64,000 nt of DNA from Spartobacteria bacterium LR76 (lineage in GTDB: Bacteria; Verrucomicrobiota; Verrucomicrobiia; Chthoniobacterales; Terrimicrobiaceae): NCBI GenBank assembly GCA_003054655.1, contig QAYZ01000016.1, positions 558,001-622,000 of the forward strand, in the 5' to 3' direction. The position numbers and the translations under genes are program-made. Every line of letters starts with the position of its first letter. Positions within the stretch are counted from its first letter, which is position 1. This document shows, piece after piece, positions 5,358-27,260 of this stretch. The notes under the pieces were generated by a model. The model saw only the letters and a list, made by a program, of their open reading frames with translations. It ran no database searches and was not told the origin of the DNA.

Positions 5358-5392
5358 CTTGAATAGGATTTCTAGGGGCGTAACTGCGGAGT

Positions 5393-5423
5393 TCAAATCC
5401 GAAGCAGAGTTTCTCAGTTAAGT
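5393..5423 (-). promoter_or_regulatory. Regulatory element copy A with downstream -10-like hexamer
   Basis: Read on the minus strand, 5409-5423 matches GCTTAACTGAGAAAG at 13 of 15 positions. Seventeen bases after TTAACT comes ATTTGA (5393-5398), the same spacing seen at copies B, C and E. It precedes the PEP-CTERM gene. Confidence 0.55.
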
Positions 5424-9968: not shown

Positions 9969-12041
9969 ATGAGCGCCCGCTCTCTTCTCTTCCCTCATTT
10001 CGCGAAAATCCTGCACGGGGGAGACTACAATCCCGACCAGTGGCTCCATGCGCCGGAGGTCATCGACGAAGACTTTCGCCTCATGCCGCTGGCGGGGTGC
10101 AATACCTTCTCGGTCGGAATCTTCAGTTGGACCAGCTACGAACGGCAGGAGGGTGTCTTCACCTTCGACTGGCTGGACGACATCATGGACCGCATGGCCA
10201 AAGCGGGCAATCGTGTGGTATTGGCTACTCCCAGCGGGGCCAAGCCGGCCTGGATGGCAAAGAAGTATCCCGAGATTCGTCGTGTGAATGCCTCCGGCGT
10301 GCGCGAGCCGCAGTGGCATCGCCAGAATCACTGCTGGGCGTCGCGCGTCTATCGGGAAAAGGTCGCGATTATCAACACCAGGCTGGCCGAGCGCTATGCG
10401 AGCCACCCCGCGCTGGCCATGTGGCATGTCTCCAATGAGCTCGGCAATGACGATCTCTTCGGCCAGTGTTATTGCCCGCTCTGCCTCGCGGAGTGGCAGC
10501 GCTGGCTGGAGCGCCGCTACGGTTCGCTGGAAAATCTCAACCGCGCGTGGTGGGCCAGCTTCTGGAGTCATGAGTTCACCGCCTGGGACGAGATCGACCC
10601 TCGCGACTGGAGCATGGACGGGCTCTCGGTGGACTGGATGCGGTTTCGCAACTGGCAGATCAAGGATTGGTATGAATTCGAAGCCGCAACGCTGCGGCCT
10701 ATCACGCCCGCCATCCCGATCACCACGAATTTCATGGGCCTCCTGCCGTACATCAACTACGCGGAACTCGCGCGCAGTGTCGATGTCATCGCTGATGACC
10801 AGTACCCGGCCTACGACCTCGACGATCCGGAGATGGTGGATTCGGCCGTGAAGATCAGCTTCAAGGACGACGTGTACCGGTGCTTCAAACCGGATCGCCC
10901 GTGGATGCTGATGGAGAGCTGCCCGGACGCCCCGCAGTGGAAGCCGATCATGCGGCCCAAGCCCGCCGAGGTGCACCAGCTTGAGATGCTTCAGGCGCTC
11001 GGGCACGGGGCCGAGGGCACCTGCTATTTCCAATGGCGCAAGGGCCTCGGCAGCCGCGAAAAACTCCACGGAGCGGTCGTGGATCATTCCGGGCGGGAAG
11101 ACAGCCGCGTCTTTCGCAGCGTCGTCTCGCTCGCTGAGAAATACGAAAAGCTCACGCCGATCCTGGGATCGACCATCACGGCCGAGGTCGGGCTGGTTTA
11201 CGACTGGGAGGCTCGCTGGGGGCTGGAAAACTCCGAGGGCGCGGCAGGGAGGAACTGGGATTACGAATCCGTCGCCTATGCGAACTACCGCCCCTTCTGG
11301 GAGCAGGGTGTCGCGGTCGACATCTTTGCGAGCGAGGCGGAGTTTTCGCCGTACAAGCTGCTCATCCTCCCGCAGCTCTGGATGTTGAAACCCGGGGTGG
11401 CAACTCGCCTCCGGGCCTTTGTCGAGGGCGGTGGCGTATTGGTATCTACCGGCTACCTGGGCATCTGCAATGAAAGTAATCTCTGCTTCCCCGGCGGCTG
11501 GCCCGGCGACGGCCTGATGGATCTCTTTGGGATCTGGAATGAAGAATACGATACGCTCCCGGATAAACGCCCCGTCCCGCTCGCGGTCGAGGCTGGCCAT
11601 CCGCTGGCGAAACAGGCCGCAATGCTTGCCGGTAAGGAAGTGTGCGCCAGCCTGCATGCTAATGGGGCCGAAGTCGTCGCGCGCTATGTCGATGGCCGGT
11701 TCCAGGGCGCTCCGGCCATCACGGTGAAGCGTCACGGTCGCGGCGAGGCGTGCTATGTCGGCTCCCGGCTCGACCTGGAGTCCCTCCGGGTCCTGGCCCG
11801 TGATTTCACGCGACGGCTGGAACTGACGAAGCCCTTCCCGGCTGAGATTCCCGTCGGCGTGGCCGTGCAGCAGCGCATCGACGACACGCAGCGGTTTGTC
11901 TTCCTGGAGAACTTCACTCCCCATCCGCAGGTCGTCGACCTCGGCGGGGTGACTGCCAGCGACATGATCTCCGGGGAAACCCGCATGGGTCTCCTGACTC
12001 TCTCGCCCGCGCAATCCACCGTCCTCGCGATCCCGAGATAG
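9969..12041 (+). CDS. GH42 beta-galactosidase
   Basis: The 690-aa length and domain order fit GH42: an N-terminal TIM barrel (GGDYNPDQW at about 17-25), a trimerisation domain and a C-terminal beta domain. The acid/base is Glu157 in WHVSNELG and the nucleophile Glu316 in MLMESCP. Cys122 with Cys168, Cys170 and Cys173 matches the zinc site known from the Thermus A4 enzyme. No signal peptide is seen. It is third in the operon, 24 bp after the dehydrogenase. It should release beta-linked galactose from imported oligosaccharides. Confidence 0.9.
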   Translation: MSARSLLFPHFAKILHGGDYNPDQWLHAPEVIDEDFRLMPLAGCNTFSVGIFSWTSYERQEGVFTFDWLDDIMDRMAKAGNRVVLATPSGAKPAWMAKKYPEIRRVNASGVREPQWHRQNHCWASRVYREKVAIINTRLAERYASHPALAMWHVSNELGNDDLFGQCYCPLCLAEWQRWLERRYGSLENLNRAWWASFWSHEFTAWDEIDPRDWSMDGLSVDWMRFRNWQIKDWYEFEAATLRPITPAIPITTNFMGLLPYINYAELARSVDVIADDQYPAYDLDDPEMVDSAVKISFKDDVYRCFKPDRPWMLMESCPDAPQWKPIMRPKPAEVHQLEMLQALGHGAEGTCYFQWRKGLGSREKLHGAVVDHSGREDSRVFRSVVSLAEKYEKLTPILGSTITAEVGLVYDWEARWGLENSEGAAGRNWDYESVAYANYRPFWEQGVAVDIFASEAEFSPYKLLILPQLWMLKPGVATRLRAFVEGGGVLVSTGYLGICNESNLCFPGGWPGDGLMDLFGIWNEEYDTLPDKRPVPLAVEAGHPLAKQAAMLAGKEVCASLHANGAEVVARYVDGRFQGAPAITVKRHGRGEACYVGSRLDLESLRVLARDFTRRLELTKPFPAEIPVGVAVQQRIDDTQRFVFLENFTPHPQVVDLGGVTASDMISGETRMGLLTLSPAQSTVLAIPR

Positions 12042-12522: not shown

Positions 12523-12537
12523 CTTTCTCAGTTAATG
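12523..12537 (-). promoter_or_regulatory. Regulatory element copy D over the lacI start codon
   Basis: CTTTCTCAGTTAATG matches the reverse-complement consensus at 13 of 15 positions and includes the lacI start codon. Its orientation is opposite to lacI, which suits autorepression more than a promoter role. Confidence 0.5.
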
Positions 12538-13620
12538 CCTCCCCGTGTGACCCAGCGCGATATCGCGCGTGAAGCTGGTATTTCCCATGTGGCTGTCTCC
12601 CTGGCCCTGCGTGATCACCACTCGATCTCCAAGGAAACCAAGGATCGGGTGAGGGAAATCGCGCAGAGGATCGGCTATAGTCCGGACCCTCTCCTCTTTA
12701 GCCTTTCCGCCTACCGGAAGGCTAACAGGCCGGCAGCCTATCATAGCAATCTCGCCTGGCTGAACACCTATGCCAATCCCAAGGAACTCTATATCGGGGA
12801 TTTTTGCGAATACTTTGCCGGGGCCCGGCAAAGATGCATTGAGCTGGGATACGTTCTTGAGGAGATTCGCATGGCCGATTTTGATCATAACGCCGCCCGC
12901 GTTCGCCGCGTATTGCGCAACCGGGGTATCAAGGGAATCCTGCTCGCTCCGGCGGAGGCTCCTGATGCCGAGCTGGATCTCGACTTGTCGAGCTTCTCCG
13001 CGGTGCGGTTTGGCTACAGTTTCAAATCCCCGGTCCTTCACACCGTCTCCAATGCGCAGTTTCGTACCGCATCCCTGGCCGTCGAGCATCTCCTGGAGTT
13101 AGGGTACCAGCGGATAGGGATGTTCATTAGTGAGGATCTGAATATCCGCACGGGGGGGAACTTCATGGGGGGCTTTAACGCGTCACTCCACAAGATCCCA
13201 AAGGAAAGGTGGATCCCTCCATACCGCCAAATGCAGATGGGGGACCGGTCTGAGGTCCGGCGGTGGCTGGACCGGTGCAAGGTGGACTGCGTGATCAGCC
13301 ATGGCTTCTGGCTCCTGATGGTCTTGATGGAGCTCGGCGTGCGGATTCCCGAGGATATCGGCTACGTCGATCTCGCTCTGAACGCGAATGAGGCCAAAGT
13401 CAGTGGAATGCGGCAGAATTCCTTCATGGTCGGTGCCATGGCGGTCGATCAACTCAATGGCCTGATGATTCATGGCGAGTTGGGCGTGCCCAAGGTGCCA
13501 ATGCATATATATGTCGAGGGCGAATGGTTCGAGGGCACGACCGTCAGGCAGCAGCCAGAGCGGAAGCCCAGCCCGGGGAAAAAACCGCCTCGATCCCCAA
13601 AATCGACCAGGCTTAACTGA
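12535..13620 (+). CDS. LacI/GalR-family transcriptional regulator
   Basis: This 361-aa protein has an N-terminal LacI helix-turn-helix (about residues 6-25, TQRDIAREAGISHVAVSLAL) and a periplasmic-binding-protein-like effector domain (IKGILLAPAEAP, LGYQRIGMFISED, IPEDIGYVDL). The C-terminal 25 residues are basic and Pro-rich, an unusual tail. It sits inside the sugar locus. Element copy D overlaps its start and copy E contains its stop codon, so it is the best candidate for the protein that binds the element. The effector is unknown, probably a galactoside. Confidence 0.88.
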   Translation: MPPRVTQRDIAREAGISHVAVSLALRDHHSISKETKDRVREIAQRIGYSPDPLLFSLSAYRKANRPAAYHSNLAWLNTYANPKELYIGDFCEYFAGARQRCIELGYVLEEIRMADFDHNAARVRRVLRNRGIKGILLAPAEAPDAELDLDLSSFSAVRFGYSFKSPVLHTVSNAQFRTASLAVEHLLELGYQRIGMFISEDLNIRTGGNFMGGFNASLHKIPKERWIPPYRQMQMGDRSEVRRWLDRCKVDCVISHGFWLLMVLMELGVRIPEDIGYVDLALNANEAKVSGMRQNSFMVGAMAVDQLNGLMIHGELGVPKVPMHIYVEGEWFEGTTVRQQPERKPSPGKKPPRSPKSTRLN

Positions 13621-13641: not shown

Positions 13642-13714
13642 GAACCCTTCTTCGTGATGGTTAGGTGAAATCGCGATGCATAGTCGCCATGGTCCCTCCA
13701 CCTCATTTCTCCTC

Positions 13715-14461
13715 ATGAAAAGTTCACCCAAACTCTTGTTTCAAACGACGATTCTCGTTTCGGGTCTCCTGGCTGCCAGCTTTCCCGGCCTCGCGGCGGA
13801 CGATCTGAATGTCATTTATTCCACGGGATTCGAGCGGCCGGATTACACGCCCAAGGATCAACTCAAGGATGAGCGGTTCTTCGATCGCTGGTACGGCAGC
13901 GGCGACGGTGGTTCCTGCATCGTGAAGATCACGGACGAGGAGGCGCATGAGGGGGCGCAGAGCCTGATGATGGAGGACCGGACCAGCACCGGGGTTCCCT
14001 TCGTGGGGAGAAACATGTCCGAGATGATCACCAATGCGGAGGTCTCCGTGGCGGTCAAGCTAGTGGCGCCAGATACCGCCTGGCGCATGGATTTCCGTAA
14101 CGATGAAGCCATCACTTTCATGGTCGCTCATGGCTGGAATCCGGAATGGAATGAGAGCGGACTCATCGTCCGAACCGAGAAAAACATGGGGCACGCCACG
14201 CCGGAGGATTTCATCAAGGGAATTTCTGATTCCGAGATCGGCTATAATCCGACGGAGTGGAACGTCATTTCCTGCCGCTTCGACGACAAGACGAAGACAT
14301 TCTCCCTTTCCGTCAACGGCAAGGTCGTGCTCGCAATCGAGAAGGACGACCGGGTCGACTGGAAGTTCAATCGCTTTTACCTCGCGACCGGCTGGGGATC
14401 GGGAGACACCCCGCAGTTGAAAGCCTGGTTTGATGATCTCGTGATCGCGGGCAAACCCTAA
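13715..14461 (+). CDS. Secreted concanavalin-A-like (lectin/glucanase-fold) protein
   Basis: The 248-aa product has a signal peptide (KSSPKL, hydrophobic TTILVSGLLAASFPGLAA). The mature protein has a jelly-roll-like pattern: STGFERPDY, HEGAQSLMMEDRT, VSVAVKLVAPDTAWRMDF, FSLSVNGKVVLAIE and a closing WFDDLVIAG strand. This is typical of ConA-like carbohydrate-binding or lyase folds. I see no catalytic motif I can name. It lies behind element copy E and ahead of the heparinase-type lyase, so it probably works outside the cytoplasm on the same polysaccharide. An ATG at 13676 would add a 13-residue extension that breaks the signal peptide. Confidence 0.6.
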   Translation: MKSSPKLLFQTTILVSGLLAASFPGLAADDLNVIYSTGFERPDYTPKDQLKDERFFDRWYGSGDGGSCIVKITDEEAHEGAQSLMMEDRTSTGVPFVGRNMSEMITNAEVSVAVKLVAPDTAWRMDFRNDEAITFMVAHGWNPEWNESGLIVRTEKNMGHATPEDFIKGISDSEIGYNPTEWNVISCRFDDKTKTFSLSVNGKVVLAIEKDDRVDWKFNRFYLATGWGSGDTPQLKAWFDDLVIAGKP

Positions 14462-14515: not shown

Positions 14516-16729
14516 ATGCGCGATTCTTGTTCTGGCATCCTATTGAGCAGCCGCGCCGTCCTTGCCTTGGGCGGAGCCGTCCTCCTCCAGCTTTGCCTTC
14601 CGGGCTGCGACAGTCATTCCAATGTGGTCTCCCCGGAGAAAAATGCGGATGCCTTAGCGGCTTCTCCGAGTCCTGCCGCCGTGAGCTTTCGCGAGCCATC
14701 GCCGTTGGAAAAAGACCTGTTTTCCGCCCTGGACCTGACCACTCCCAGCCTGGCTCCGGTGCGGGATGCTGTGGGACGGGGAGACTATGACAGCGCCACG
14801 AAGGCATTTGCCGGCTATTTGCGTCAGCGAACGAATGTTACGTGGACGGTGAAACCGGCGGCAAAGACCAGGCCCGACTTGAAGGTCGCGAACGATGCCG
14901 TTGCTGGAACGCTCCAGGGAGGTAATGTCCAGCTCTCTCACACCTTTCCGGATGGCAAGGTCGACTGGTTCTGCGATCCCACGGGCACTTCGCCGGAGAA
15001 TCCCAAGAATAACGAGTGGCAATGGCAGTTGAACCGCATGATGTTCTGGGACGCGTTGGGTGACGCGTACGCCGTGACCAAGGATGAGAAATACGCCCGC
15101 ACTTTTGCTGATCATTTGCGCTCGTGGACCGCGCAATGCCCGGTGCCGGATGTGATCCAGGTACAGGCCGGGTCCGCCTGGCGGCCCATCGAGGCGGGGC
15201 TGCGCATGGCTAATGCCTGGCCTGCGGCCTATCAGCGCTTCCTTCAGTCTCCCTCCGTGACCGATGCCGATCTGGTGACGTATGCCCACTCGGTGCTCGA
15301 TCACGGTCGCTACCTGCGGAAGTTTGCGGCCAAGGAGGATGGCAACCACCTCACCATGGGAATGTCCGGCCTGTATTCGGCAGGGGCGTTTTTCCCCGAG
15401 TTCAAGGAGTCTGCAGACTGGCGCAAGTTTGCCGTCGACACCCTGGCGAGGGATGCCGCCGTCCAGTTCCTGCCCGATGGCGGGCAGTTTGAGCTCACGC
15501 CGGGCTATCATAATGTCGCGCTGGATAATTTTCTTAAGATCGCCGAGGTGGCGAAGATGACCGGACGGGCTGATGATATCCCGCCAGTCTACTGGGCGAT
15601 GGCCGAAAAGGCCTATGATTACAATCTGGCGCTGATGACTCCGGATCGCCTCCTCCCGTGCTTCAACGACTCGTGGCCGCTTAGCGCCGGATACATTTAT
15701 TCCCGTGCATCGGCTCTCTTTCCGGATCGGAAAGACTTCCAGTGGGCTTTGACCAATGGCGACCAGGGCGCACCGCCGGCCTTCACCTCAAAGTTCCTCG
15801 ACTGGACCGGCTACGCCATCATGCGTTCCGGCTGGGAGCGGAATGCTAACTATCTCGTCTTCGACATAGGCCCGGCCGGCCATGGGCATATCCATCAGGA
15901 TAAACTCGGCGTCGTGCTGTGGGCCTGGGGCCGCCGCTTGCTCATGGACGTGGGCGGGGGGAGCTACGAAAAGAGCAAGTGGCGCGCCTGGTCGATCTCC
16001 ACGGCGGCGCAGAATTGCGTGTTGATCGATGGCCTGTCGCAGAACATCGCGGAAGAGTGGAAACCGGGCGGCCATTCGAAAGACGCTCGCTATGTTTCCC
16101 AGCAGCCCATCGACGCGGGCTGGATCAGCACGCCGGAGTACGACTACGCCAAGGGGACTTACGACGGGGAGTTCACCGATCCGCCGGATAAAAACGCCAT
16201 CTTCTTTTACCCCAGGAAGAGCAAGGGTAAGATCGCCACGCAGATCCGCGAGGTTTTCTTCCTGAAGCCCGACATCTATGTCATCCGCGACACCGCAGTG
16301 CCGAATGACGACCAGCCTCACACCGCCCAGGCTCGGTGGCATCTCGCCAGCGTCAAGACCGCCTTTGACGCGGCCACCGGCGCGGTTGTCACGCAGGACC
16401 CGGGGAAGGCAAATCTCGCCGTCATCCCGCTGCTGCGCAATGGCCTGGAGGTCCGGACCGCCTCCGCCCAGGAGGAGCCGGAAATCCTCGGCTGGGATGT
16501 GCGCAAGGATCAGACGCCCGCCCGCATTTCCGCCACCACAATCCTGCAGACCCGCCAGGCCACGGGACGCCAGGAGTTCCTCACTCTGCTCCTGCCCATC
16601 AAGCCCGGCGCGGAAAACCCGGTAGAACGTATTTCAGAGACTGCCCCGTTTGAGATTCGTCTCAAGGATGGCCGCCGTTTTCAAGTCATCGCGGAGACTG
16701 GCTCTCCGCTGAAAGTCGTCGCCTTCTAG
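14516..16729 (+). CDS. Heparinase II/III-family polysaccharide lyase, lipoprotein
   Basis: The 737-aa product begins with a lipoprotein signal ending in CLPGC (Cys31). The middle is an alpha/alpha-toroid domain with GNHLTMG (Asn277, His278) and FELTPGYHN (Tyr331), positions matching the catalytic Asn/His and Tyr of PL15/PL17-type lyases. A C-terminal heparinase II/III beta domain follows, with GHGHIHQD (His456, 458, 460). These enzymes cleave uronic-acid polysaccharides by beta-elimination. It is probably anchored outside the cytoplasm and initiates breakdown before uptake. The actual polysaccharide (alginate-, heparin- or other uronan-like) is unknown. Confidence 0.8.
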   Translation: MRDSCSGILLSSRAVLALGGAVLLQLCLPGCDSHSNVVSPEKNADALAASPSPAAVSFREPSPLEKDLFSALDLTTPSLAPVRDAVGRGDYDSATKAFAGYLRQRTNVTWTVKPAAKTRPDLKVANDAVAGTLQGGNVQLSHTFPDGKVDWFCDPTGTSPENPKNNEWQWQLNRMMFWDALGDAYAVTKDEKYARTFADHLRSWTAQCPVPDVIQVQAGSAWRPIEAGLRMANAWPAAYQRFLQSPSVTDADLVTYAHSVLDHGRYLRKFAAKEDGNHLTMGMSGLYSAGAFFPEFKESADWRKFAVDTLARDAAVQFLPDGGQFELTPGYHNVALDNFLKIAEVAKMTGRADDIPPVYWAMAEKAYDYNLALMTPDRLLPCFNDSWPLSAGYIYSRASALFPDRKDFQWALTNGDQGAPPAFTSKFLDWTGYAIMRSGWERNANYLVFDIGPAGHGHIHQDKLGVVLWAWGRRLLMDVGGGSYEKSKWRAWSISTAAQNCVLIDGLSQNIAEEWKPGGHSKDARYVSQQPIDAGWISTPEYDYAKGTYDGEFTDPPDKNAIFFYPRKSKGKIATQIREVFFLKPDIYVIRDTAVPNDDQPHTAQARWHLASVKTAFDAATGAVVTQDPGKANLAVIPLLRNGLEVRTASAQEEPEILGWDVRKDQTPARISATTILQTRQATGRQEFLTLLLPIKPGAENPVERISETAPFEIRLKDGRRFQVIAETGSPLKVVAF

Positions 16730-16752: not shown

Positions 16753-17205
16753 ATGAAAGTTCTCCACACTTTGCATCATCGAGCCGCCTTCAGCCTGGTC
16801 GAGGTCACCATGGCCATCGGGATCGTGTCCTTTGCCATTCTGTCGGTCCTCGGCACGATGTCGGTGGGCCTGAGCACCGTGCGTGATGCCAAGAAGGAGA
16901 CCACCAGCGCCCAGATCGCCTCCCAGATCGGCTCCGGGATGTCCCAGACGCCATTTACCAATCTCGCTGCGTTTGCGACCAACGGGCCGTACTTCTTCGA
17001 CGATAGCGGCAGGCAGATCGACAGCGTCCAGACGGCCGCTTTCAGCGCGAAGGTGGAGTCGGTCAGCACAGCCTATCCCGGTGCGCCGAGCGACGTCCTG
17101 ACGACCTCCGCCAGCAAGTGGCGCATCACGGTTTCCAGCCTCCGCCCGGGAACCACCAACGCCATTTCGTCCTCCCGGTTTTCCCTTTTGGTTCCCAAAT
17201 CCTGA
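16753..17205 (+). CDS. Verru_Chthon cassette protein B (GspI/PilV-like pseudopilin)
   Basis: A 150-aa prepilin-like protein. The prepilin peptidase site is RAA/FSLVEVTM with Phe13 as +1 and Glu17 as +5, followed by a hydrophobic helix (MAIGIVSFAILSVLGTMSVG). The short globular part (ISSSRFSLLVPKS at the end) resembles the minor pseudopilin GspI or PilV. It is the first gene of the Verru_Chthon cassette, a four-gene set known from Chthoniobacter and Verrucomicrobium whose function is not established. The next gene begins nine bases after this stop. Confidence 0.8.
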   Translation: MKVLHTLHHRAAFSLVEVTMAIGIVSFAILSVLGTMSVGLSTVRDAKKETTSAQIASQIGSGMSQTPFTNLAAFATNGPYFFDDSGRQIDSVQTAAFSAKVESVSTAYPGAPSDVLTTSASKWRITVSSLRPGTTNAISSSRFSLLVPKS

Positions 17206-17213
17206 TCTCTGTC

Positions 17214-18227
17214 ATGTGTGCGCGCGTCGATCGAGATCCGGCGGCGGGGGAGGGCCTCATCCGTGCAAGGAGAGCTGCTGCCTTCACGCTCATCGAGATC
17301 CTGGTGGCCGTGACGGTGTTTCTCCTCCTGCTGGGCATCCTCTTCTCGGTGATCGGTCAGGCGGGCTCCGCTTGGCAGCGCACCCGCAGCGACGCCGACG
17401 CCTATCAGTCCGCCCGCTTCGCCTTCAATCTCATCTCGCGCACGCTGAGCCAGGCACGGATGAATGTTTACACCGACTACGACAACCCTTCCAAGCCGAC
17501 CTCCTACCGGCGCAAGTCGGACCTGAACTTCGTCATCACCGCCCCGCCCGGGACGGACTTCGGACAAGGCAACGCCGTCTTCTTCCAGGCCCCGGTAAAT
17601 CGTACGCTGGACTCGGCCAATCTGGGAGGCCTGCCCGGGTTGCTCAACACGGTCGGCTACTATGTCACCTACGGAAAGAATCCCAATCTCCCGCCTTTCC
17701 TCCAGAGCTTTGACCGGAATCGCTTTCGCCTCATGCAACTGCTCACGCCCGCGGAAGAGATGAAGGCAATATTGACCGCTCCAGCTTCCGGGGATTGGTA
17801 TCAGAAGCAGCTCTCGAACTCGACCGTGATCGCAGACAACGTGGTCTGCATCATCTTCTGGCCCCGCCTCTCCAGCGAGGAGGACCCCGAGGGGGACACC
17901 CTGACCGCCGTCGCCAACAACGCCTATCGGTACGACTCGCGAGATGGCGCCAGCGCTTCTCCCCAGCCCATCACCGCCAATCAACAGCCTCCCCTGGTCG
18001 AGGTGGCTCTCGTCGCGATCGACAAGACCGTCGCCGGTCGTCTGCCCGACTCCGCCACGCCGCCCTCCGAGGTGACCACCGCGCTTTCCGGGCTTTTTTC
18101 CCAGGCGAACGCGACGAATTTCTCCGCGGATCTCGCCAAACTGGAGAAGAGCCTCAACGACAAAAATCTCTCCTGCCGCATATTTCGCACTACAGTGCAG
18201 CTCAAGGAATCGAGGTGGAGCAGATGA
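17214..18227 (+). CDS. Verru_Chthon cassette protein C (GspJ/PilW-like pseudopilin)
   Basis: A 337-aa protein with prepilin site RAAA/FTLIEILVAV (Phe24 as +1, Glu28 as +5). A hydrophobic helix and then SARFAFNLISRTLSQARMN follow, the pattern of GspJ/PilW. It is larger than typical GspJ, matching cassette protein C. I chose the ATG at 17214 because the longer frame overlaps gene B out of phase. The stop overlaps the start of D (ATGA). Confidence 0.8.
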   Translation: MCARVDRDPAAGEGLIRARRAAAFTLIEILVAVTVFLLLLGILFSVIGQAGSAWQRTRSDADAYQSARFAFNLISRTLSQARMNVYTDYDNPSKPTSYRRKSDLNFVITAPPGTDFGQGNAVFFQAPVNRTLDSANLGGLPGLLNTVGYYVTYGKNPNLPPFLQSFDRNRFRLMQLLTPAEEMKAILTAPASGDWYQKQLSNSTVIADNVVCIIFWPRLSSEEDPEGDTLTAVANNAYRYDSRDGASASPQPITANQQPPLVEVALVAIDKTVAGRLPDSATPPSEVTTALSGLFSQANATNFSADLAKLEKSLNDKNLSCRIFRTTVQLKESRWSR

Positions 18228-18823
18228 ACCGGTCTGCCTCATTCAGAGCATTCAGCCTGGTCGAGCTGCTGCTTGTCGTTGCGATCATTGGCATACTGCT
18301 CGTACTGACTGTTCCCTCGCTGACCAACGTTTCGCGCAGCATGTCGTTATCGCGATCCGGCCAGAGTCTGGCCGATGCCATCGTCCTCGCCCAGCAGCAG
18401 GCCGCGACGCTGAATCGCCGCGCCAGCGTGCGATTGATCAAGCTGCCGGATGAGGCGGGAAATGTTGCTTATCGCGGGGTTCAGCCCTGGATCGTCAAGG
18501 ACGACGCCGGGACTCTGGCGCCACTGTCGAGGGTGATTTCCTTTTCCTCCGGCATCGTAATCACAGCCGAGCCGAGCTTGTCGCCGATCCTGCAATCTCC
18601 CCCGTCCACCAATGGCACGATGCCGGTCTCGGGCAAGACGCGCGATTATGTCTCTTTTACCGTCCTGGCTAATGGCGGACTAGAGAATGTCACCTCGACG
18701 AATTCCTTCCTGACACTGGTGCACGAAAACGACTCCGCCAAAAGCGCCTCCGCGAGACCGGCGAATTTTTTCACCGTCAACATCAATCCCGTGACCGGAG
18801 AGGTCAGTACCTTTCAGCCCTGA
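18224..18823 (+). CDS. Verru_Chthon cassette protein D (GspH/FimT-like pseudopilin)
   Basis: The 199-aa product has the prepilin site FRA/FSLVELLLV (Phe10 as +1, Glu14 as +5) and a GspH/FimT-like segment, SLADAIVLAQQQAATLNRR. A good ribosome site (GAGGTGGAG) lies just upstream of the ATG, which overlaps the stop of C by ATGA. Its own stop overlaps the start of A (TGATG). These overlaps argue for tightly coupled production of all four cassette proteins in fixed ratio. Confidence 0.82.
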   Translation: MNRSASFRAFSLVELLLVVAIIGILLVLTVPSLTNVSRSMSLSRSGQSLADAIVLAQQQAATLNRRASVRLIKLPDEAGNVAYRGVQPWIVKDDAGTLAPLSRVISFSSGIVITAEPSLSPILQSPPSTNGTMPVSGKTRDYVSFTVLANGGLENVTSTNSFLTLVHENDSAKSASARPANFFTVNINPVTGEVSTFQP

Positions 18824-21800
18824 TGAATACGATGTCCCGTGCCCGCTCTCTGCGGATGGCAAATGGAGGTGCCGCTCTCGTCATCGTCCTGGCCATCCTC
18901 GTGCTCGTGGCAGGCTTTTCCGTGGCCCTGCTCAATCTCGCCGTCACGCAGCGCCAGTCGGCCGCGACCTTCCTCGCCAACTCCAAGACCCGGCAGCTCG
19001 GTGACACGGCTGTGGGCATCGTCCAGGCCCAGATCAATCACGCCACCACCCAGGGCGCGACCGTCGCCTGGGCCTCCCAGCCCGGCATGGTGCGGACCTA
19101 CACGACCAGCGGAAATCTCGACAAAGCGTACAAACTCTACTCGGCAACATCCCTCACAGAGACCAACCCGGCCTCGCTGGTCAATGATCTGCCGCCGGGA
19201 GACTGGGCCTCGTCTCCAGCTCTGTGGACAGATATCAACGCGCCCGTGGTCGTCGGTGGCAGGAGTGTCTATCCGATCGTGGACCCCGGCATCCTCGACC
19301 TGCCCACCAACTCCGTCCCGCTCGGGTTTTCCATCACCAGCGCGCCGGGATCGACCAGCAGCCAGCGCGCGCCCATGCCGGTAAAGTGGCTTTACATCCT
19401 GGAGGATGGCCAGATCGTGGCACCCATAGGATCAGGCAATAGCGTTACGGTCGCCGGAGCCACCGCGCAGAACCCCGTCGTGGGGCGGATCGCATTCTGG
19501 ACCGACGATGAAAGCTGCAAGGTCAACCTCAACACCGCCGGCGCGGGCAGCCTCTGGGATACCCCGCGATTTTACTCCACCGAGGAGGTGAACTTTGCGA
19601 ACAGCCAGCCGCTCAATGGAGAGTTTCAGCGTTATCCCGGCCACCCGGCGATGACCAGCCTGAGCGCGGTCTTTCCCGATCTCACCGACCAGCAGATCCT
19701 CTCCTCAATCACTCCCCGGTACCAGTGGGGCGGCTCGCAGCAGGGGGCCGTCAATACGTATGACAAGACCGACGCGTTGAATGGCGGGGTACTGGCGAGC
19801 GCTCCGCTCTACACCGACACGGATGAGATCGCCTTCAAGTCCAGCTACACCGATCGCTCGCTGAACAGCCTGTTCTCCCGGTCGGTGATCGAAAGAACGC
19901 GTTTCTTCCTGACCACCGACAGCCATTCGCCGGAGGTCAATCTCTTCAACCTGCCCCGCGTTTCCTGTTGGCCTGTCGCTACGGCTTCAGACAAGCGGAC
20001 GGCCTTTGACCAGGTCATCGCGCTGGCCGCCAGCATCGGATCATATCCCTACTACTTTCAGCGAGCAAACGCCCTGAGCCCCACGGAGGACTACTCCTCC
20101 ATCCAGCGAAACAAGGATCTCTTCGGTTATCTCCAGTACCTGACGAGCCAAAAGATCCCCGGCTTCGGAGTGAAGCTGGCCGACAAGTTCGGAGCCGATA
20201 ACGACCAGATCCTGACCGAGGTATGGGACTACATCCGGAGTACGAATCTCTACGACACCCGGCTGGCTGTCGGGAAGCAGTTCACCGCCGAGCCGGGCGC
20301 GCAGGGCAATGGCTATGGCTACGTCGTGCCGCTGGAGACCGGTAATGCCTCGGACCCCAATCGCGGGTTTGGCCGCAGCCTCACGCTGACAAAACTCGCC
20401 TTTGTCTTCATCTGCACTGCCGACCCGGTCGACACCCAGTCGGGTCAGGACCATCCCTATGCCGATGGCATGCTGCACAGCAACGATCCGACAAAGAACA
20501 AGACGCTTGGGAACACGGCGTTGACGAGCACCCAGCGCCGCGTGCAGATGATGATCCTCCCGCAGTTTTTCTCTCCATCGATGGGTAATGTCTGGATGTC
20601 TCCCAAGAATGTCCGCGTAACGATCGCCGGGCTGAACAACCTGACTCTGGCAGGCACCCCCCTGTTCTCGGCCTCCTCGGCCTCGTCGACTACCACGGAG
20701 ATGAGGTTTAACTCCGGCTGGCACCGCCGTTCGCTCGGCGGCACCTTCGACTACCGCGCCGTTTTCGGGGGATCGACCGGCTACACCCAGTCCGATCCCG
20801 GCATTCTCGACACCCCGAACTATCCTCTCTTTGCCTATCCCTGGATCAGCAAGTTTGTCACCGTGCCGGTTCCCAATCCCGGCACCGCCAGCCCGGGCGC
20901 GATGACCTTTGGCACAGGGCCGCTCACCGTGACCCTCCAAACCTCCACCGACGGAACGAACTGGACCACCTCGCAGGTGATCACCATCACTCCTCCGGCG
21001 TCATCGAGCATTCCCATTCCCAATCTCGTGCGGGTCGGGACCGGAGCCAGCGGCAGCGGCACAGGAGCCACCGCCGCCACGCCCGCGCAAACGTGGTGGG
21101 CCTTTAGCTATACCAGCCCTTGGACGGGAGGAACGAGCGGCCGCCTCGCCAACCTGATCGGCAATCCCGGGTACTACAAAATCTCGGGAGGCGTGCCGGT
21201 TGTATCCTATACGGATAGCGCCGTGTCCGGCACTGTGTTTCGCGAGGCGGAGGATAGCGTCTACTATACCGATGTCGTCCGCGAGATGGGCCTCGTCCAT
21301 GGCGATGCGCGCCTGGTGGCGGGATTGCGCAACGTCCCCTCCGAGGCATTCTCCCCCTTGGGAAACTGGTCCTCGACTGCTCCCGCCGATGCACTGATGC
21401 ACACACTGTCGGCCGGTTTGCCCAAGGCCATGTACGTCCCCGGAGGGAGTCAATTCCGGCGTCATTTTGTCACGACGAGTCCCGCTCTCGACGAATCCGT
21501 GGGAGCAGGCGGTCAGTTCGCTCCCGATTTTCGCAGCGATGCCTCCACGGCCATTCTCAATGCCGTCAATACCTCCGGCGATTTTGACAATGGCCTGGCC
21601 TTCTGGCCCGATGGGGCTTTCATTAACAAGCCGGATGAGGGCAACATCTATTCCTCTGGCGGTTCGCGGCCGTACTTTGATAGCTCCGAGTACGAAAAGT
21701 TGAATTCCGTGGGCTTCTTCAGCCCGAATCGCATCATGCCCGGGCCGGGCATGTTTGGCTCCCTGCCGACCCATCTCCGGCGTTATCAGGCCGACGCGGC

Positions 21801-22638
21801 CAACCCCGAGAAATACGCCTGGCGTACCCTGCTCTTTCGCAAGCAGCCATCGCACCCCAACGCCGTCACCGTGGACTCCAACGGCATCCCCACCTCGGCT
21901 CCCGACCATCTGCTCATGGATCTCTTCTGGATGCCGACGGTCGAGCCTTACGCCATCAGCGAACCGTTTACCTCGGATGGAAAGGTCAATATGAACTACC
22001 AGATTCAGCCCTTCACCTATATCAAGCGGGCTACTGGTCTTTACGCCGTCCTGAAGGCGGAAAAAATCCCGGCTGTCGAGAATACCGATACGAACTATAC
22101 GAATTACAAGGCGCTTATGTTCAAGGGCACATCGTCCCCGCCGCCTGCCAGCGCGTCCTATCGTCTGGACCTGGATGTCCCCACCACACTGAGCCAGTTT
22201 GACACGCGCTTTGCCGCGACCAGTGGGAGGCTTTTTCTTTCCCCGAGCGAACTGTGCGACCTCTGGCTGGTGCCGCAAGGCCAGTCGCTTGGCACGATGG
22301 AAACCTTCTGGAAAAGTCGCAACCTTACGGGCGACAACATGCGCGAACGTCCCTACACAACGATCATCCCGCGCCTCACGACCAAGTCGAATACCTTTAC
22401 CGTATACTATCGCGTCCAAAGCCTGCGCCAGCCACGCAGCGCCGCGGGCGGCACCTGGAGCGACGCGACCGGAACCGTAAGCGGCGAATACCGCGGCTCC
22501 GCCACCATCCAGCGCTTCATCGACCTGAATAACACCACGCTGCTGCAAACCGACTTTGCCACCAGCACCGCAAACAGACCCACGCTCGACACCTTCTATC
22601 GCTGGCGGGTGCTGAGCAGCAAGCAGTTCGCCCCCTGA
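18823..22638 (+). CDS. Verru_Chthon cassette protein A (giant GspK/PilX-like protein)
   Basis: A 1271-aa protein with one N-terminal membrane helix (ALVIVLAILVLVAGFSVALL) after a basic, Gly-containing leader, as in GspK/PilX, and without Glu at +5. Residues 228-237 read DDESCKVNLN, close to the D-E-x-G-(K/R)-(I/V)-N-L-N motif of GspK. The rest is a very long Ser/Thr/Gly-rich extracytoplasmic region of unknown fold. GspK is normally about 300-350 aa, so this is several times longer. Size and position match cassette protein A. It probably caps a pseudopilus-like fibre, or is displayed by one; that is inference. Confidence 0.82.
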   Translation: MNTMSRARSLRMANGGAALVIVLAILVLVAGFSVALLNLAVTQRQSAATFLANSKTRQLGDTAVGIVQAQINHATTQGATVAWASQPGMVRTYTTSGNLDKAYKLYSATSLTETNPASLVNDLPPGDWASSPALWTDINAPVVVGGRSVYPIVDPGILDLPTNSVPLGFSITSAPGSTSSQRAPMPVKWLYILEDGQIVAPIGSGNSVTVAGATAQNPVVGRIAFWTDDESCKVNLNTAGAGSLWDTPRFYSTEEVNFANSQPLNGEFQRYPGHPAMTSLSAVFPDLTDQQILSSITPRYQWGGSQQGAVNTYDKTDALNGGVLASAPLYTDTDEIAFKSSYTDRSLNSLFSRSVIERTRFFLTTDSHSPEVNLFNLPRVSCWPVATASDKRTAFDQVIALAASIGSYPYYFQRANALSPTEDYSSIQRNKDLFGYLQYLTSQKIPGFGVKLADKFGADNDQILTEVWDYIRSTNLYDTRLAVGKQFTAEPGAQGNGYGYVVPLETGNASDPNRGFGRSLTLTKLAFVFICTADPVDTQSGQDHPYADGMLHSNDPTKNKTLGNTALTSTQRRVQMMILPQFFSPSMGNVWMSPKNVRVTIAGLNNLTLAGTPLFSASSASSTTTEMRFNSGWHRRSLGGTFDYRAVFGGSTGYTQSDPGILDTPNYPLFAYPWISKFVTVPVPNPGTASPGAMTFGTGPLTVTLQTSTDGTNWTTSQVITITPPASSSIPIPNLVRVGTGASGSGTGATAATPAQTWWAFSYTSPWTGGTSGRLANLIGNPGYYKISGGVPVVSYTDSAVSGTVFREAEDSVYYTDVVREMGLVHGDARLVAGLRNVPSEAFSPLGNWSSTAPADALMHTLSAGLPKAMYVPGGSQFRRHFVTTSPALDESVGAGGQFAPDFRSDASTAILNAVNTSGDFDNGLAFWPDGAFINKPDEGNIYSSGGSRPYFDSSEYEKLNSVGFFSPNRIMPGPGMFGSLPTHLRRYQADAANPEKYAWRTLLFRKQPSHPNAVTVDSNGIPTSAPDHLLMDLFWMPTVEPYAISEPFTSDGKVNMNYQIQPFTYIKRATGLYAVLKAEKIPAVENTDTNYTNYKALMFKGTSSPPPASASYRLDLDVPTTLSQFDTRFAATSGRLFLSPSELCDLWLVPQGQSLGTMETFWKSRNLTGDNMRERPYTTIIPRLTTKSNTFTVYYRVQSLRQPRSAAGGTWSDATGTVSGEYRGSATIQRFIDLNNTTLLQTDFATSTANRPTLDTFYRWRVLSSKQFAP

Positions 22639-24578: not shown

Positions 24579-25568
24579 ATGAATCTACCCATCCGTCCCC
24601 GCCGACTTCGTCGCACCGCTTCCATCCGTCGCATGGTTCGCGAAACCGTGCTCACCCCGGACTCGTTCATCTACCCGTTGTTCGTTCACGCCGGAGCAGA
24701 GGCGGTGGAGATCGCGTCGATGCCGGGAGTCCGGCGCCTTTCGGTGGCGGGCCTGGTGAAAGAGTGCGAGGCCGCCTGGGCTGTGGGTATTCCCGCGGTG
24801 GCGATATTTCCGGCCATCGCGCCGGATTTGAAAGATGCCTGGGGGACGCATGGACTCGATGCAGGCAATGTGCTTTTTGAGGCCGTCAGGCAGGTGAAAA
24901 AGGCCCTTCCCGAGCTGACCATCGTTACCGACGTGGCGCTCGATCCCTATACGAGCCATGGTCATGATGGCGTACTGAGCTCCGATGAAAAGGAGGTGGT
25001 CAATGACGAGACCGTAGAGGTTTTGTGCCAGCTCGCTGTCAAGGAAGCCGAGGCGGGGGCGGATATCGTGGCTCCATCCGACATGATGGATGGCCGGGTG
25101 GGGGCGATCCGTGCCGCTCTCGACGCGGCGGGATTTGAGAGGACCATCATTCTTTCCTACGCCGCGAAGTACGCCTCCGCCTACTACGGTCCATTTCGCG
25201 ATGCCGTGGGGAGCAAGATCGGGAAAGACGCCATCAGCAAGGCCACCTATCAGATGGACCCGGCCAACGTGATGGAGGCCATACGCGAGATCGCTCTGGA
25301 TGAAGCCGAGGGAGCCGACATGGTCATGGTGAAACCGGCTGGTGCCTACCTCGATATCATTCGTGCCGTCCGCGACGTGACCGATCTGCCTCTCGCCGCC
25401 TATCAGGTGAGCGGAGAATATTCCCAGATCCATGCCGGGGCGAAACTCGGCTGGCTCGACTATGAACGCACCCGCGACGAGTCGCTGCTCGCGATCAAGC
25501 GCGCGGGTGCCGATCTGATCCTGACGTACTTTGCCCGCGAGGTCGCGGAGAAGCTCGCCCGGGCCTAG
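24579..25568 (+). CDS. hemB: Delta-aminolevulinic acid dehydratase (porphobilinogen synthase)
   Basis: The 329-aa enzyme condenses two 5-aminolevulinate molecules to porphobilinogen in tetrapyrrole synthesis. The active-site lysines are visible as Lys197 (SYAAKYASAYYGPF) and Lys252 (MVMVKPAGAYLD). The metal-site segment reads TDVALDPYTSHGHDG, with Ala120, Asp122 and Asp130 where zinc enzymes have cysteines. This is the magnesium-type, zinc-independent form. The ATG at 24579 opens the conserved PIRPRRLRR start. It ends tail-to-tail with the ATPase gene, sharing CTAG. Confidence 0.96.
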   Translation: MNLPIRPRRLRRTASIRRMVRETVLTPDSFIYPLFVHAGAEAVEIASMPGVRRLSVAGLVKECEAAWAVGIPAVAIFPAIAPDLKDAWGTHGLDAGNVLFEAVRQVKKALPELTIVTDVALDPYTSHGHDGVLSSDEKEVVNDETVEVLCQLAVKEAEAGADIVAPSDMMDGRVGAIRAALDAAGFERTIILSYAAKYASAYYGPFRDAVGSKIGKDAISKATYQMDPANVMEAIREIALDEAEGADMVMVKPAGAYLDIIRAVRDVTDLPLAAYQVSGEYSQIHAGAKLGWLDYERTRDESLLAIKRAGADLILTYFAREVAEKLARA

Positions 25569-27259
25569 GTGTACTTGACGACTTCCTCGATGGTGGTGAG
25601 GCCGTCGTAGATCGAGCGCAGACCGTCCTCGCGGAGGGTGGTCATGCCGAGTTCGATGGCCTTTTGCCGCATCACGACGCCGGGGGCGCGGTCGTTGATC
25701 ATCTCACGGAGCGGGTCGCTGATTTTCAGCAGCTCGTAGATGCCTTTACGGCCCTTGTAACCGGTGTTGTTGCAAACGTCGCAGCCTTTACCGAAGTAGA
25801 AGTTCTTGTCGCCGATGTCGTGTACCGACAAGCCGAGCGACTGAAGCACTTGCTCGGTCGGTTCATACGGCGTACGGCACGTGGTGCAGATGCGGCGAAT
25901 GAGTCGCTGGGCGAGCACGCACTCGAGCGAGGCCGAGATGAGGAACGGCTCGACGCCCATGTCCATGAGACGGGTCACAGCACCAGTCGAGTCATTCGTA
26001 TGGAGCGTCGTAAAGACGAGGTGACCTGTGAGCGAGGCCTGGATGGCGATCTGGGCCGTCTCGGTATCTCGAGTCTCTCCCACGAGGATGCGGTCCGGGT
26101 CCTGACGAAGGAAGGCGCGCAGGATGCGGCCAAAGGTCATGCCGATGGCTTCATTGATCGGAACCTGGATGATGCCGTCGATTTCATACTCCACCGGGTC
26201 CTCTGCGGTGAGGAGCTTGGTGTCGATCGTGTTGATCTTGCGCAGGCAGGAGTAGAGCGTCGTCGTCTTGCCGGAGCCGGTCGGGCCCGTGACGATGAAG
26301 ATGCCGTTCGGCTTTTCGATGACCTCGAGGATGTAGTTGTAGATGTACTCGGGCATGCCGAGGCTCTCGAGATCGAGGTTCACGCTGGAACGATCGAGCA
26401 CGCGGAGCACCACGCTTTCGCCAAAGGCTGTGGGCAGAGTCGATACACGAAGGTCGATCTGCTTGCCGTTCACCACACGCTGGATGCGGCCGTCCTGAGG
26501 GAGGCGGCGCTCGGCGATGTTCAGATTGGCCATGACCTTGACGCGTGAGATGACGGGCAGGGCCAGGTGGCGCGGCGGCGGATCCATCTCGTAAAGCGCG
26601 CCGTCCACGCGGTAGCGGATTTTGAACTCCGCCTCGAAGGGCTCGAAGTGAATGTCACTCGCGCGGGCTGCGATGGCCTTGTCGAGGATCAGGTCGACGA
26701 AGCGGATGATCGGCGCGGCATTGGCCTCCTGGGCGGCTGCCTGGGCATTGAACTCCTCTTCATTGCCTTCGCGAAGCGTAAGCTCTGCCGAGTCTCCGAG
26801 CTGCGAGAGGACGTCGTCGAGGCTGGTCGCCTCGGAGCCATAATACTCGTCGATCATCGCCCGTACCTTGGACGGCGGAGCGACCATGAGATGAATCTCC
26901 CGACCGAGGGCAAAGCGCAGGTCCTCGACCGCCTGGGCATTCATCGGATCGACGAGCACGATGTAGATCGTGTTTTGCGATGCTCCGATGGGCATCGCGC
27001 CGTGCAGACGGGCCAGGCCGCCGGGAATGAGGTGCAGGATCTCCGAGGCCCCGTCGAAGTGGGCCAGATCGGCGACTTCTGTACCGAGCGAATCGGCGAT
27101 CACCTGGTAAAACTGGGCTTCATTGAGCAGGCCGCTCTCGATCATCACCGTTTCGATCGGGCGATCCGTGGTGGCGACTTCCTGCACAAAGGAGTGGCCT
27201 GTTTCCGGACTCAGGTAGCCGGCCTCGACGAAGATGTCTGTGACTTGTTTGGCGTCCAT
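25565..27259 (-). CDS. GspE/PilB-type secretion or pilus assembly ATPase (copy 2)
   Basis: The 564-aa hexameric ATPase has an N-terminal MshEN/GspE-N region, then a RASDIHFEPFE N2 motif and Walker A GPTGSGKTTT near residue 330. It also has the Asp box (TAEDPVEYEIDGI), Walker B (DPDRILVGETRD), a His box (TGHLVFTTLHTND) and a tetracysteine zinc motif (CTTC, CDVC). It powers assembly of type II secretion pseudopili or type IV pili. Its ATG follows one base after the stop of the paralogue upstream. It may energise the Verru_Chthon pseudopilins encoded ~3 kb away, which is inference. Confidence 0.92.
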   Translation of the reverse strand: MDAKQVTDIFVEAGYLSPETGHSFVQEVATTDRPIETVMIESGLLNEAQFYQVIADSLGTEVADLAHFDGASEILHLIPGGLARLHGAMPIGASQNTIYIVLVDPMNAQAVEDLRFALGREIHLMVAPPSKVRAMIDEYYGSEATSLDDVLSQLGDSAELTLREGNEEEFNAQAAAQEANAAPIIRFVDLILDKAIAARASDIHFEPFEAEFKIRYRVDGALYEMDPPPRHLALPVISRVKVMANLNIAERRLPQDGRIQRVVNGKQIDLRVSTLPTAFGESVVLRVLDRSSVNLDLESLGMPEYIYNYILEVIEKPNGIFIVTGPTGSGKTTTLYSCLRKINTIDTKLLTAEDPVEYEIDGIIQVPINEAIGMTFGRILRAFLRQDPDRILVGETRDTETAQIAIQASLTGHLVFTTLHTNDSTGAVTRLMDMGVEPFLISASLECVLAQRLIRRICTTCRTPYEPTEQVLQSLGLSVHDIGDKNFYFGKGCDVCNNTGYKGRKGIYELLKISDPLREMINDRAPGVVMRQKAIELGMTTLREDGLRSIYDGLTTIEEVVKYT

Positions 27260-27260
27260 G

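Follow-up and report, generated by a model that had tools for sequence, protein, structure and literature searches.

Introduction

What does a bacterial four-gene cassette do whose only names are placeholders? The question is raised by a window of DNA, meaning the whole stretch of 64,000 nucleotides analysed here, from Spartobacteria bacterium LR76 of the phylum Verrucomicrobiota (contig QAYZ01000016.1, positions 558,001 to 622,000), in which four consecutive genes correspond to the NCBIfam models Verru_Chthon cassette proteins B, C, D and A. An initial annotation had mapped these four proteins one-to-one onto GspI, GspJ, GspH and GspK, the tip of the pseudopilus of the type II secretion system (T2SS). 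In filaments of this kind the HIJK complex is capped by K, which has no glutamate at position 5 (Glu5), and HIJK sets prime the filaments (PMC9934059; here and throughout, papers are cited by their PMC identifiers and for partial texts only). Our literature search, which left subscription papers mostly outside, found no paper with Verru_Chthon or any of the four NCBIfam accessions, and none joining Verrucomicrobi, type II secretion and GspK. The analysis described below gives the placeholder-named family a testable identity, namely that of probable minor-pilin tip sets whose K subunit is giant.

Identity of the cassette proteins

The presence of a Verru_Chthon cassette with prepilin features in the window is confirmed. 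D and A score above the cut-offs of their NCBIfam models (TIGR02596, 126 bits, cut-off 70; TIGR02600, 881 bits, cut-off 332), while B falls slightly (TIGR02598, 49.5 bits, cut-off 51.4) and C likewise (TIGR02599, 225 bits, cut-off 256.5) under theirs. Chance is ruled out by the 11 full-length A genes found in the same genome and by a relative encoded at 299 of the 340 pattern matches in named genomes, the best 79 loci of which were taken further. Read directly, the sequences bear out the prepilin features proposed initially: with the cleavage site marked by a slash, B reads RAA/FSLVE, C AAA/FTLIE and D FRA/FSLVE, so that each has Glu at +5 and Ala at −1. The same Glu+5 site occurs in all 24 own-genome rows listed for B, C and D (8 cassettes), and the 97 pilin rows of the wider set, having been selected by this motif, give no independent count. 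A starts with a prepilin-like helix (NGG/AALVI) without Glu at +5, a residue that is missing from this position in all of the 67 A proteins compared (kept from 79 named and 11 own sequences; 58 after redundancy removal).

For A, an AlphaFold2 model of residues 72–1271 was built from 54 aligned sequences (of 66 references) and reached a pLDDT of 86.2 and a pTM of 0.90. Compared with 995 chains by VIA-align, this model placed two GspK chains on top, namely 6utu_F from the XcpVWX complex (Z 8.9, rmsd 3.3, 194 of 238 residues, spanning model positions 1–1197) and 3ci0_K (Z 8.2, rmsd 3.7, 226 of 280 residues), with the next row at Z 4.6. The chain 6utu_F was taken as XcpX, that is GspK, from its length; except for 3ci0_J, 3ci0_K and 3nje, all chain identities were deduced from the title of the entry together with the letter and the length of the chain. 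The weight of this match derives from the gap in Z to the next row and from the fact that the GspK hypothesis had been stated before the search. In addition, the N-terminal helix of A aligns with a profile of 20 canonical GspK sequences (own genome plus 19 of 30 loci, the other 11 being without a clean reading) over 60 columns in hhalign, with an E-value of 3e-7. A GspK-type fold of A is thus well supported on the level of the predicted structure, and the structural comparison with GspK suggested initially came out in favour of the assignment.

The AlphaFold2 model of C, computed from 36 alignment rows (named genomes and window only) of 65 found, has a pLDDT of 89.8. Its ten best VIA-align rows range from Z 9.2 to 10.8, the next unrelated row reaching 5.2, and consist of eight T2SS pseudopilin rows (among them 3ci0_J with Z 9.7, XcpW 3nje with Z 9.2 and EpsI:EpsJ) and two rows of the Thermus pilin TTHA1219. 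In hhalign comparisons with canonical verrucomicrobial proteins the C profile fits GspJ best (E 4e-13, 205 columns), so that the modelled GspJ-type fold of C is likewise well supported.

B and D were assigned from profile matches. The B profile has GspI as its best hhalign partner at E 5e-9, followed by GspJ at 2.5e-7. PilV is the pilus counterpart of GspI, and among 30 B family members PilV is matched by 25, XpsI by 24, ComGE by 23 and GspI by 20 at E-values up to 1, the PilV and GspI matches sitting mostly over the helix. All 31 D family members match the NCBIfam GspH model TIGR01708 (best non-cassette E-value 2.8e-11), as they do four other pilin models, and the Pfam GspH family is found on the globular part of 19 of the 31 at E-values up to 1. 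For the window D alone ComGC scores above GspH; in hhalign, in a comparison that did not include a GspH profile, GspJ fits D better than GspI. Searches of the PDB by sequence gave no match for A, no useful match for B, helix matches and one chance match to Cas10 for C, and helix matches for D (best E 8e-10), where FimU reached E 0.21 beyond the helix. Without their helices the B and C profiles yielded nothing above noise in hhalign against the canonical proteins. B is therefore likely of GspI/PilV type and D likely of GspH type judging from these profiles, and the proposed one-to-one mapping stands by fold for A and C and, less firmly, by profile for D and B.

Several results pull in the other direction. 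According to VIA-align's own note, unrelated models typically reach best Z values of 7 to 8, and the fold matches of both A and C depend on the program's second look. Foldseek returned no match at E 0.001 for the A model against the PDB, with GspK absent among the 50 matches listed, perhaps because the GspK parts of A lie far apart in sequence; it also returned nothing at this threshold for the C model, nor for the A model against a viral library. A scores 17 bits against the GspK equivalog NF037980 and does not reach the cut-off of 130, although this test is strict for the phylum since the canonical GspK of the same genome fails it too (68 bits). No GspK or carbohydrate Pfam family was detected in the 11 own-genome A proteins, and A without its helix matches the GspK profile weakly, its sole match being nine columns (KVNLNTA) with a probability of 18%. 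Moreover, the first N-x-N motif of A fits motif 2 of GspK better (31.8) than motif 1 (18.4), and the counterpart of motif 1 in the related A' proteins introduced below scores 9.2 against GspK motif 1, within the range of shuffled columns (up to 14.5).

Architecture of protein A

With 1271 amino acids A is 4.2-fold as long as the GspK of the same genome (304 amino acids), in agreement with the roughly fourfold length noted at the outset. The segment DDESCKVNLN, recognised initially as resembling a GspK motif, was found again at residues 228–237, and its residues D228, D229, N235 and N237 are invariant in the 11 paralogues. A second motif, GKVNMN, is present in 66 of the 67 A proteins. The two N-x-N motifs are 728–965 residues apart in 64 of 67 A proteins, compared with 83–145 residues in 19 of 20 canonical GspK proteins.

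The link to the C-terminal part of GspK was drawn through a second class of about ten cassettes in the same genome, whose large protein, A', is encoded by frames of 1112–1415 codons and is intermediate in sequence between A and GspK. An A' profile made from 8 of the 10 members aligns with GspK over motif 2 and the segment before it (E 1.8e-7 at a probability of 93.8; the score of 51.3 compares with 17.5 for the best of 30 column shuffles), with further alignments over the C-terminal region at E 6e-8 to 9e-7. A' in turn aligns with residues 11–242 of A at E 2.7e-15 and with residues 996–1059, including motif 2, at E 7e-5. By these alignments the C-terminal part and the N-terminal helix of A can be firmly linked to GspK. 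A GspK unit confined to residues 1–350, as assumed initially, proved wrong: the N-x-N spacing and the A' alignments place GspK features near the N-terminus as well as near the C-terminus, separated by about 700 additional residues.

Where these residues were inserted is less certain, since the first motif of A prefers GspK motif 2 and its A' counterpart scores within the shuffles. Residues 221–240 of A reach 18.4 against GspK motif 1 with a maximum of 15.1 in 30 shuffles, and a longer A'–GspK alignment puts GspK motif 1 on a different stretch of A'. Most simply, the extra part likely occupies residues ~246–965. Residues 522–921 mostly show the lowest conservation, and three relatives in other genomes (G217 contigs 81 and 185, G125 contig 17) are matched by the A profile chiefly at their two ends, which fits an exchangeable middle of A.

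In one A' cassette (L074, 6302–9016) C is separated from a divergent giant K-like gene by a 904-codon frame. In L200 (4610–18143) three tandem genes of about 1390 codons share a prepilin-like helix, with no matches to B, C or D and no motif 2 pattern.

Gene order, copy number and machines

In the window the C/D junction is an ATGA and the D/A junction a TGATG overlap, while B and C are separated by 8 nt, so that the overlaps described initially exist at two of the three junctions. They suggest translational coupling only. A fixed stoichiometry of the four proteins, which had been deduced from them, was dropped because gene order varies among cassettes. In the 54 named loci flanked by over 4 kb on either side, a few near-duplicates among them, all four genes stand together in 43, ordered BCDA in 15, BCAD in 10, ABCD in 10 and DBCA in 8, with 11 incomplete. 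The 11 own A cassettes comprise five BCDA, three BCAD, one DBCA, one split cassette and one A alone, and these four complete orders and the split cassette speak against fixed stoichiometry. In the split cassette (L058, 6107–17830) B and A share one strand and C and D the opposite one, and the two pairs are separated by three other genes and about 5 kb. Nine of the ten A' cassettes read D-B-C-A', which corresponds to H-I-J-K, and the canonical operon of the genome reads G-H-I-J-K-L-M (H, I, J, L and M assigned by eye).

Mantel tests on ten paralogous cassettes, one for each pairing of A, B, C and D, show correlated distance matrices in all six cases (r 0.44–0.74, p ≤ 0.0042). The cassettes thus appear to diversify as units, which fits a complex of their products without proving one.

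The genome encodes 11 full-length A proteins, with nine further matches to the N-terminus only and one more found through the GspK model. Among 64 prepilin-like matches a single GspG exceeds its cut-off; about 60 further prepilin-like N-termini, those of the cassette pilins included, stay under it. There is one prepilin peptidase gene and one GspK of canonical type (64.7 bits with the GspK model in the genome search), alongside five secretins, four GspF-like genes and eight GspE-family matches, and genes for GspG, GspK, GspD, GspE and GspF are clustered. A GspK-type protein can evidently carry some 700 extra residues, and one genome can carry about 20 tip sets for few machines.

Elsewhere, 21 A copies over the cut-off were counted in G217 and 12 in G066 (manual count, gene pieces counted once). 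Cultured bacteria that carry such loci include Chthoniobacter flavus Ellin428 and Verrucomicrobium sp. BvORR034 (L151 and L157). Of 288 sampled genomes of the phylum, 8 have an A over the cut-off and 156 a match at E 0.001; we did not accept these 156 as cassette carriers, as the matches listed mostly cover the helix only. One A relative (L180) lies on a contig labelled Betaproteobacteria (BOG_genome_mining.10), which points to transfer or misbinning.

Genomic neighbourhood

The cassette lies 23 nt downstream of a heparinase II/III-type lyase gene on the same strand; a GH42 enzyme and a transporter of the major facilitator superfamily (MFS) are encoded farther upstream. The coordinates are collected in Table 1.

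Table 1. Features of the cassette and of its upstream neighbours, in window positions.
Feature	Position	Strand	Basis
GH42 beta-galactosidase	9969..12041	+	PF02449, E 6e-124
LacI-family regulator upstream of putative operon	12535..13620	+	PF00356, E 3e-11
261-aa protein, signal-peptide-like start, no Pfam match at E 0.01	13676..14461	+	
Heparinase II/III-type polysaccharide lyase, likely lipoprotein (LPGC, lipobox by eye)	14516..16729	+	PF16889, E 9e-101; PF07940
Gene B, probable GspI/PilV-type minor (pseudo)pilin, 150 aa	16753..17205	+	TIGR02598
Gene C, predicted GspJ-type minor (pseudo)pilin, 337 aa	17214..18227	+	TIGR02599, AlphaFold2 model, hhalign
Gene D, probable GspH-type minor (pseudo)pilin, 199 aa	18224..18823	+	TIGR02596, Pfam GspH, TIGR01708
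Gene A, predicted giant GspK-type protein, 1271 aa	18823..22638	+	TIGR02600, AlphaFold2 model, best PDB rows are GspK chains
A residues 16–75, prepilin-type helix without Glu+5	18868..19047	+	hhalign against GspK, E 3e-7
A residues 228–237, DDESCKVNLN, first N-x-N motif, GspK motif 1 by order	19504..19533	+	Invariant residues
A residues ~246–965, probable extra module, approximate boundaries	19558..21717	+	N-x-N spacing
A residues ~966–1271, C-terminal GspK-like part	21718..22635	+	Alignment with A' at 996–1059
A residues 1053–1058, GKVNMN, GspK motif 2	21979..21996	+	Present in 66 of 67 A

Beyond the cassette, 3 kb downstream past an MFS gene, the window holds a tandem pair of PilB/GspE-type ATPases with MshEN domains (25565–28931, minus strand). 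A possible surface substrate is encoded at 3435–5396 on the minus strand; it matches the PATR repeat weakly, and its end resembles PEP-CTERM (VIPEPS...RRRKQ, by eye).

The LacI gene near the cassette is one of 50 in the genome. Against a null of random placement on the six contigs, LacI genes are found within 8 kb of 8 of the 11 A cassettes (expected 2.2, p 0.00025), with 7 of 11 within 5 kb (expected 1.7, p 0.0005) and 8 of 11 within 12 kb (p 0.001). Among 97 of the 101 neighbours of the own A cassettes there are ten LacI, five MFS, four CBM_4_9, three GH130, four PATR and four PEP-CTERM matches, and two each for polysaccharide lyase, heparinase, GH28 and alginate lyase; the scan omitted the two PilB-type ATPases and two open reading frames downstream, which tilts the sample slightly towards carbohydrate genes. 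Proteins from 12 random regions of 18 kb, nine of them on one contig, served as controls (97 of 158 drawn randomly). None of the 50 LacI positions falls inside these regions, in which about two would be expected, and the 25 commonest of their 160 families contain no LacI, MFS, glycoside hydrolase (GH), polysaccharide lyase or CBM family. In other genomes 97 neighbours from 28 loci include nine LacI, four GH130 and several other carbohydrate families; flanks were long enough at 48 of 74 loci, which gave 182 proteins that were cut by hand to 109 before 97 were drawn. For all three sets the 25 commonest families were compared (of 74, 160 and 101 for own, control and other genomes), so that single matches may be hidden, and gene calls were heuristic, taking the longest open frames with GC3 bias in place of a trained gene finder. 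Most A cassettes hence lie by LacI genes and many by carbohydrate genes. We regard this context, about 20 tip sets and an A class found for the most part close to LacI and carbohydrate genes, as the more interesting part of the findings.

Proposed role and alternatives

The reading we prefer, and hold to be somewhat more probable than its negation, is that the cassettes encode alternative filament tips, each made together with a polysaccharide locus and each carrying a giant K module that recognises the polysaccharide in question. D as GspH, B as GspI, C as GspJ and A as GspK would make up a full set of minor pilins for the tip of a type 4 filament, with A, combining GspK features at both ends with some 700 further residues, as its large head. 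After processing of the cassette proteins by the prepilin peptidase, I, J and K may assemble in a staggered arrangement topped by K, and H would connect this complex to the major pilin that a shared machine provides. As the filament assembles, the giant K module would then be driven out of the cell by way of the secretin. Since the genome has about 20 sets but one GspG over cut-off and one prepilin peptidase gene, we propose alternative tips for few machines. Expression of each set would be tied to its polysaccharide locus, often under control of the LacI type, and the most likely task of the K module would be to recognise the polysaccharide of that locus, a part comparable to that of PilY1 or the lectin pilin PilC at the tips of other filaments. 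Homology in sequence and fold, co-occurrence, copy number and the linkage to LacI and carbohydrate genes are observed here; tip assembly, the machine used, surface exposure, co-expression and the ligand are what we infer from them. As ligand of the head a glycan is our first choice over the enzymes of the locus, by analogy with PilC and in view of locus content.

A number of observations temper this proposal. No known lectin or carbohydrate-binding domain was detected by Pfam in the module of the 11 A proteins, and the weak fold rows of the module in the whole-A model are C2/Ig-like sandwiches with Z ≤ 4.6. The LacI linkage is weak for the A' class (5 of 10 within 8 kb, expected 2.0, p 0.03; 3 of 10 within 5 kb, p 0.18). 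The co-diversification of the four proteins can come from linkage alone, and one full-length A (L061, 8993–12784) has no B, C or D match within 20 kb.

The same tip set could instead select enzymes. A cargo-specific pseudopilus tip would then let a shared T2SS secrete the neighbouring lyases, hydrolases and surface proteins, a scenario that we regard as a serious competitor, albeit an unlikely one. The neighbours do include lyases, some of them lipoprotein-like, and PEP-CTERM or beta-repeat proteins, the T2SS tip reportedly recognises its substrates and binds them (PMC6211770), and genes for GspG, GspK, GspD, GspE and GspF are clustered in the genome. In Verruconatronum a PulG-like pseudopilin gene with 67 genomic homologues is numbered near alginate lyase genes (PMC13274419). 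However, the canonical T2SS has a GspK of its own, many of the neighbours are proteins of types that work in the cytoplasm or the membrane (LacI, MFS, GH130), and no binding between enzyme and tip is known here.

Somewhat more doubtful still is a model in which one machine is served by about 20 interchangeable, polysaccharide-specific tips whose K heads bind the polymer, so that retraction would draw it through the secretin into the periplasm. Such a process would parallel the way in which competence pili take up DNA, and the mucin loci of Akkermansia are possibly related to it.

We consider it improbable that the cassettes encode general adhesins or extra assembly primers with an incidental link to polysaccharides, carbohydrate loci being common in the genome. 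HIJK sets of different systems are interchangeable in filament priming (PMC9934059), the genome has 50 LacI genes, and the control regions are few, with only about two LacI genes expected in them; yet the linkage of A cassettes to LacI exceeds random placement, and similar neighbours recur in other genomes. Least credible of all is a fixed envelope complex of minor-pilin descendants outside any filament, since prepilin sites, helices, the Glu+5 pattern and the full H-I-J-K complement are kept and the PilY1-bearing tip complex of M. xanthus is modelled to exit via PilQ (PMC7541494), even though A seems very large for a secretin channel and the A of L061 lacks partners nearby.

Should the tips prove specific, swapping them would provide a direct test of how type 2 secretion or pilus systems choose their substrates. 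Bacteroidota use SusCD pairs, and in that case Verrucomicrobiota would use filament tips in their place.

Comparison with known systems

The window genes are Verru_Chthon cassette proteins A–D, B and C being slightly under cut-off, and the names of the NCBIfam models carry no function. In M. xanthus three clusters combine PilY1 with FimU, PilV, PilW and PilX, and thus likewise provide several complete tip clusters with a large variable tip protein and a PilX without Glu5. There, however, the large protein is PilY1 and not the K pilin, three clusters compare with about 20, and the partial text mentions no polysaccharide loci (PMC7541494). PilA-B-C of S. sanguinis resemble the cassettes in being tip minor pilins with a large recognition module, PilC binding glycans, but that module is a recognisable lectin, whereas the extra part of A is internal and no known carbohydrate module was found in it (PMC9934059). 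A possible parallel comes from Akkermansia muciniphila, which belongs to the same phylum as the named relatives of A: its mucin use or accumulation is reported to involve mucin utilization loci with pilus-like genes, and these genes are reported to be needed for accumulation (PMC12997984, PMC12418764). Pseudopilins are also reported to be enriched in two Verrucomicrobiae populations (PMC12487129).

The closest counterpart is GspH-I-J-K of the T2SS (XcpUVWX), with which the cassettes share four parts, prepilin sites, a K without Glu+5, the predicted GspJ and GspK folds and, in the A' class, the H-I-J-K gene order. They differ from it in a K that is four times longer, with about 700 probable extra residues between GspK-like ends, and in the roughly 20 sets per genome that lie away from the T2SS operon, with variable order in the A class.

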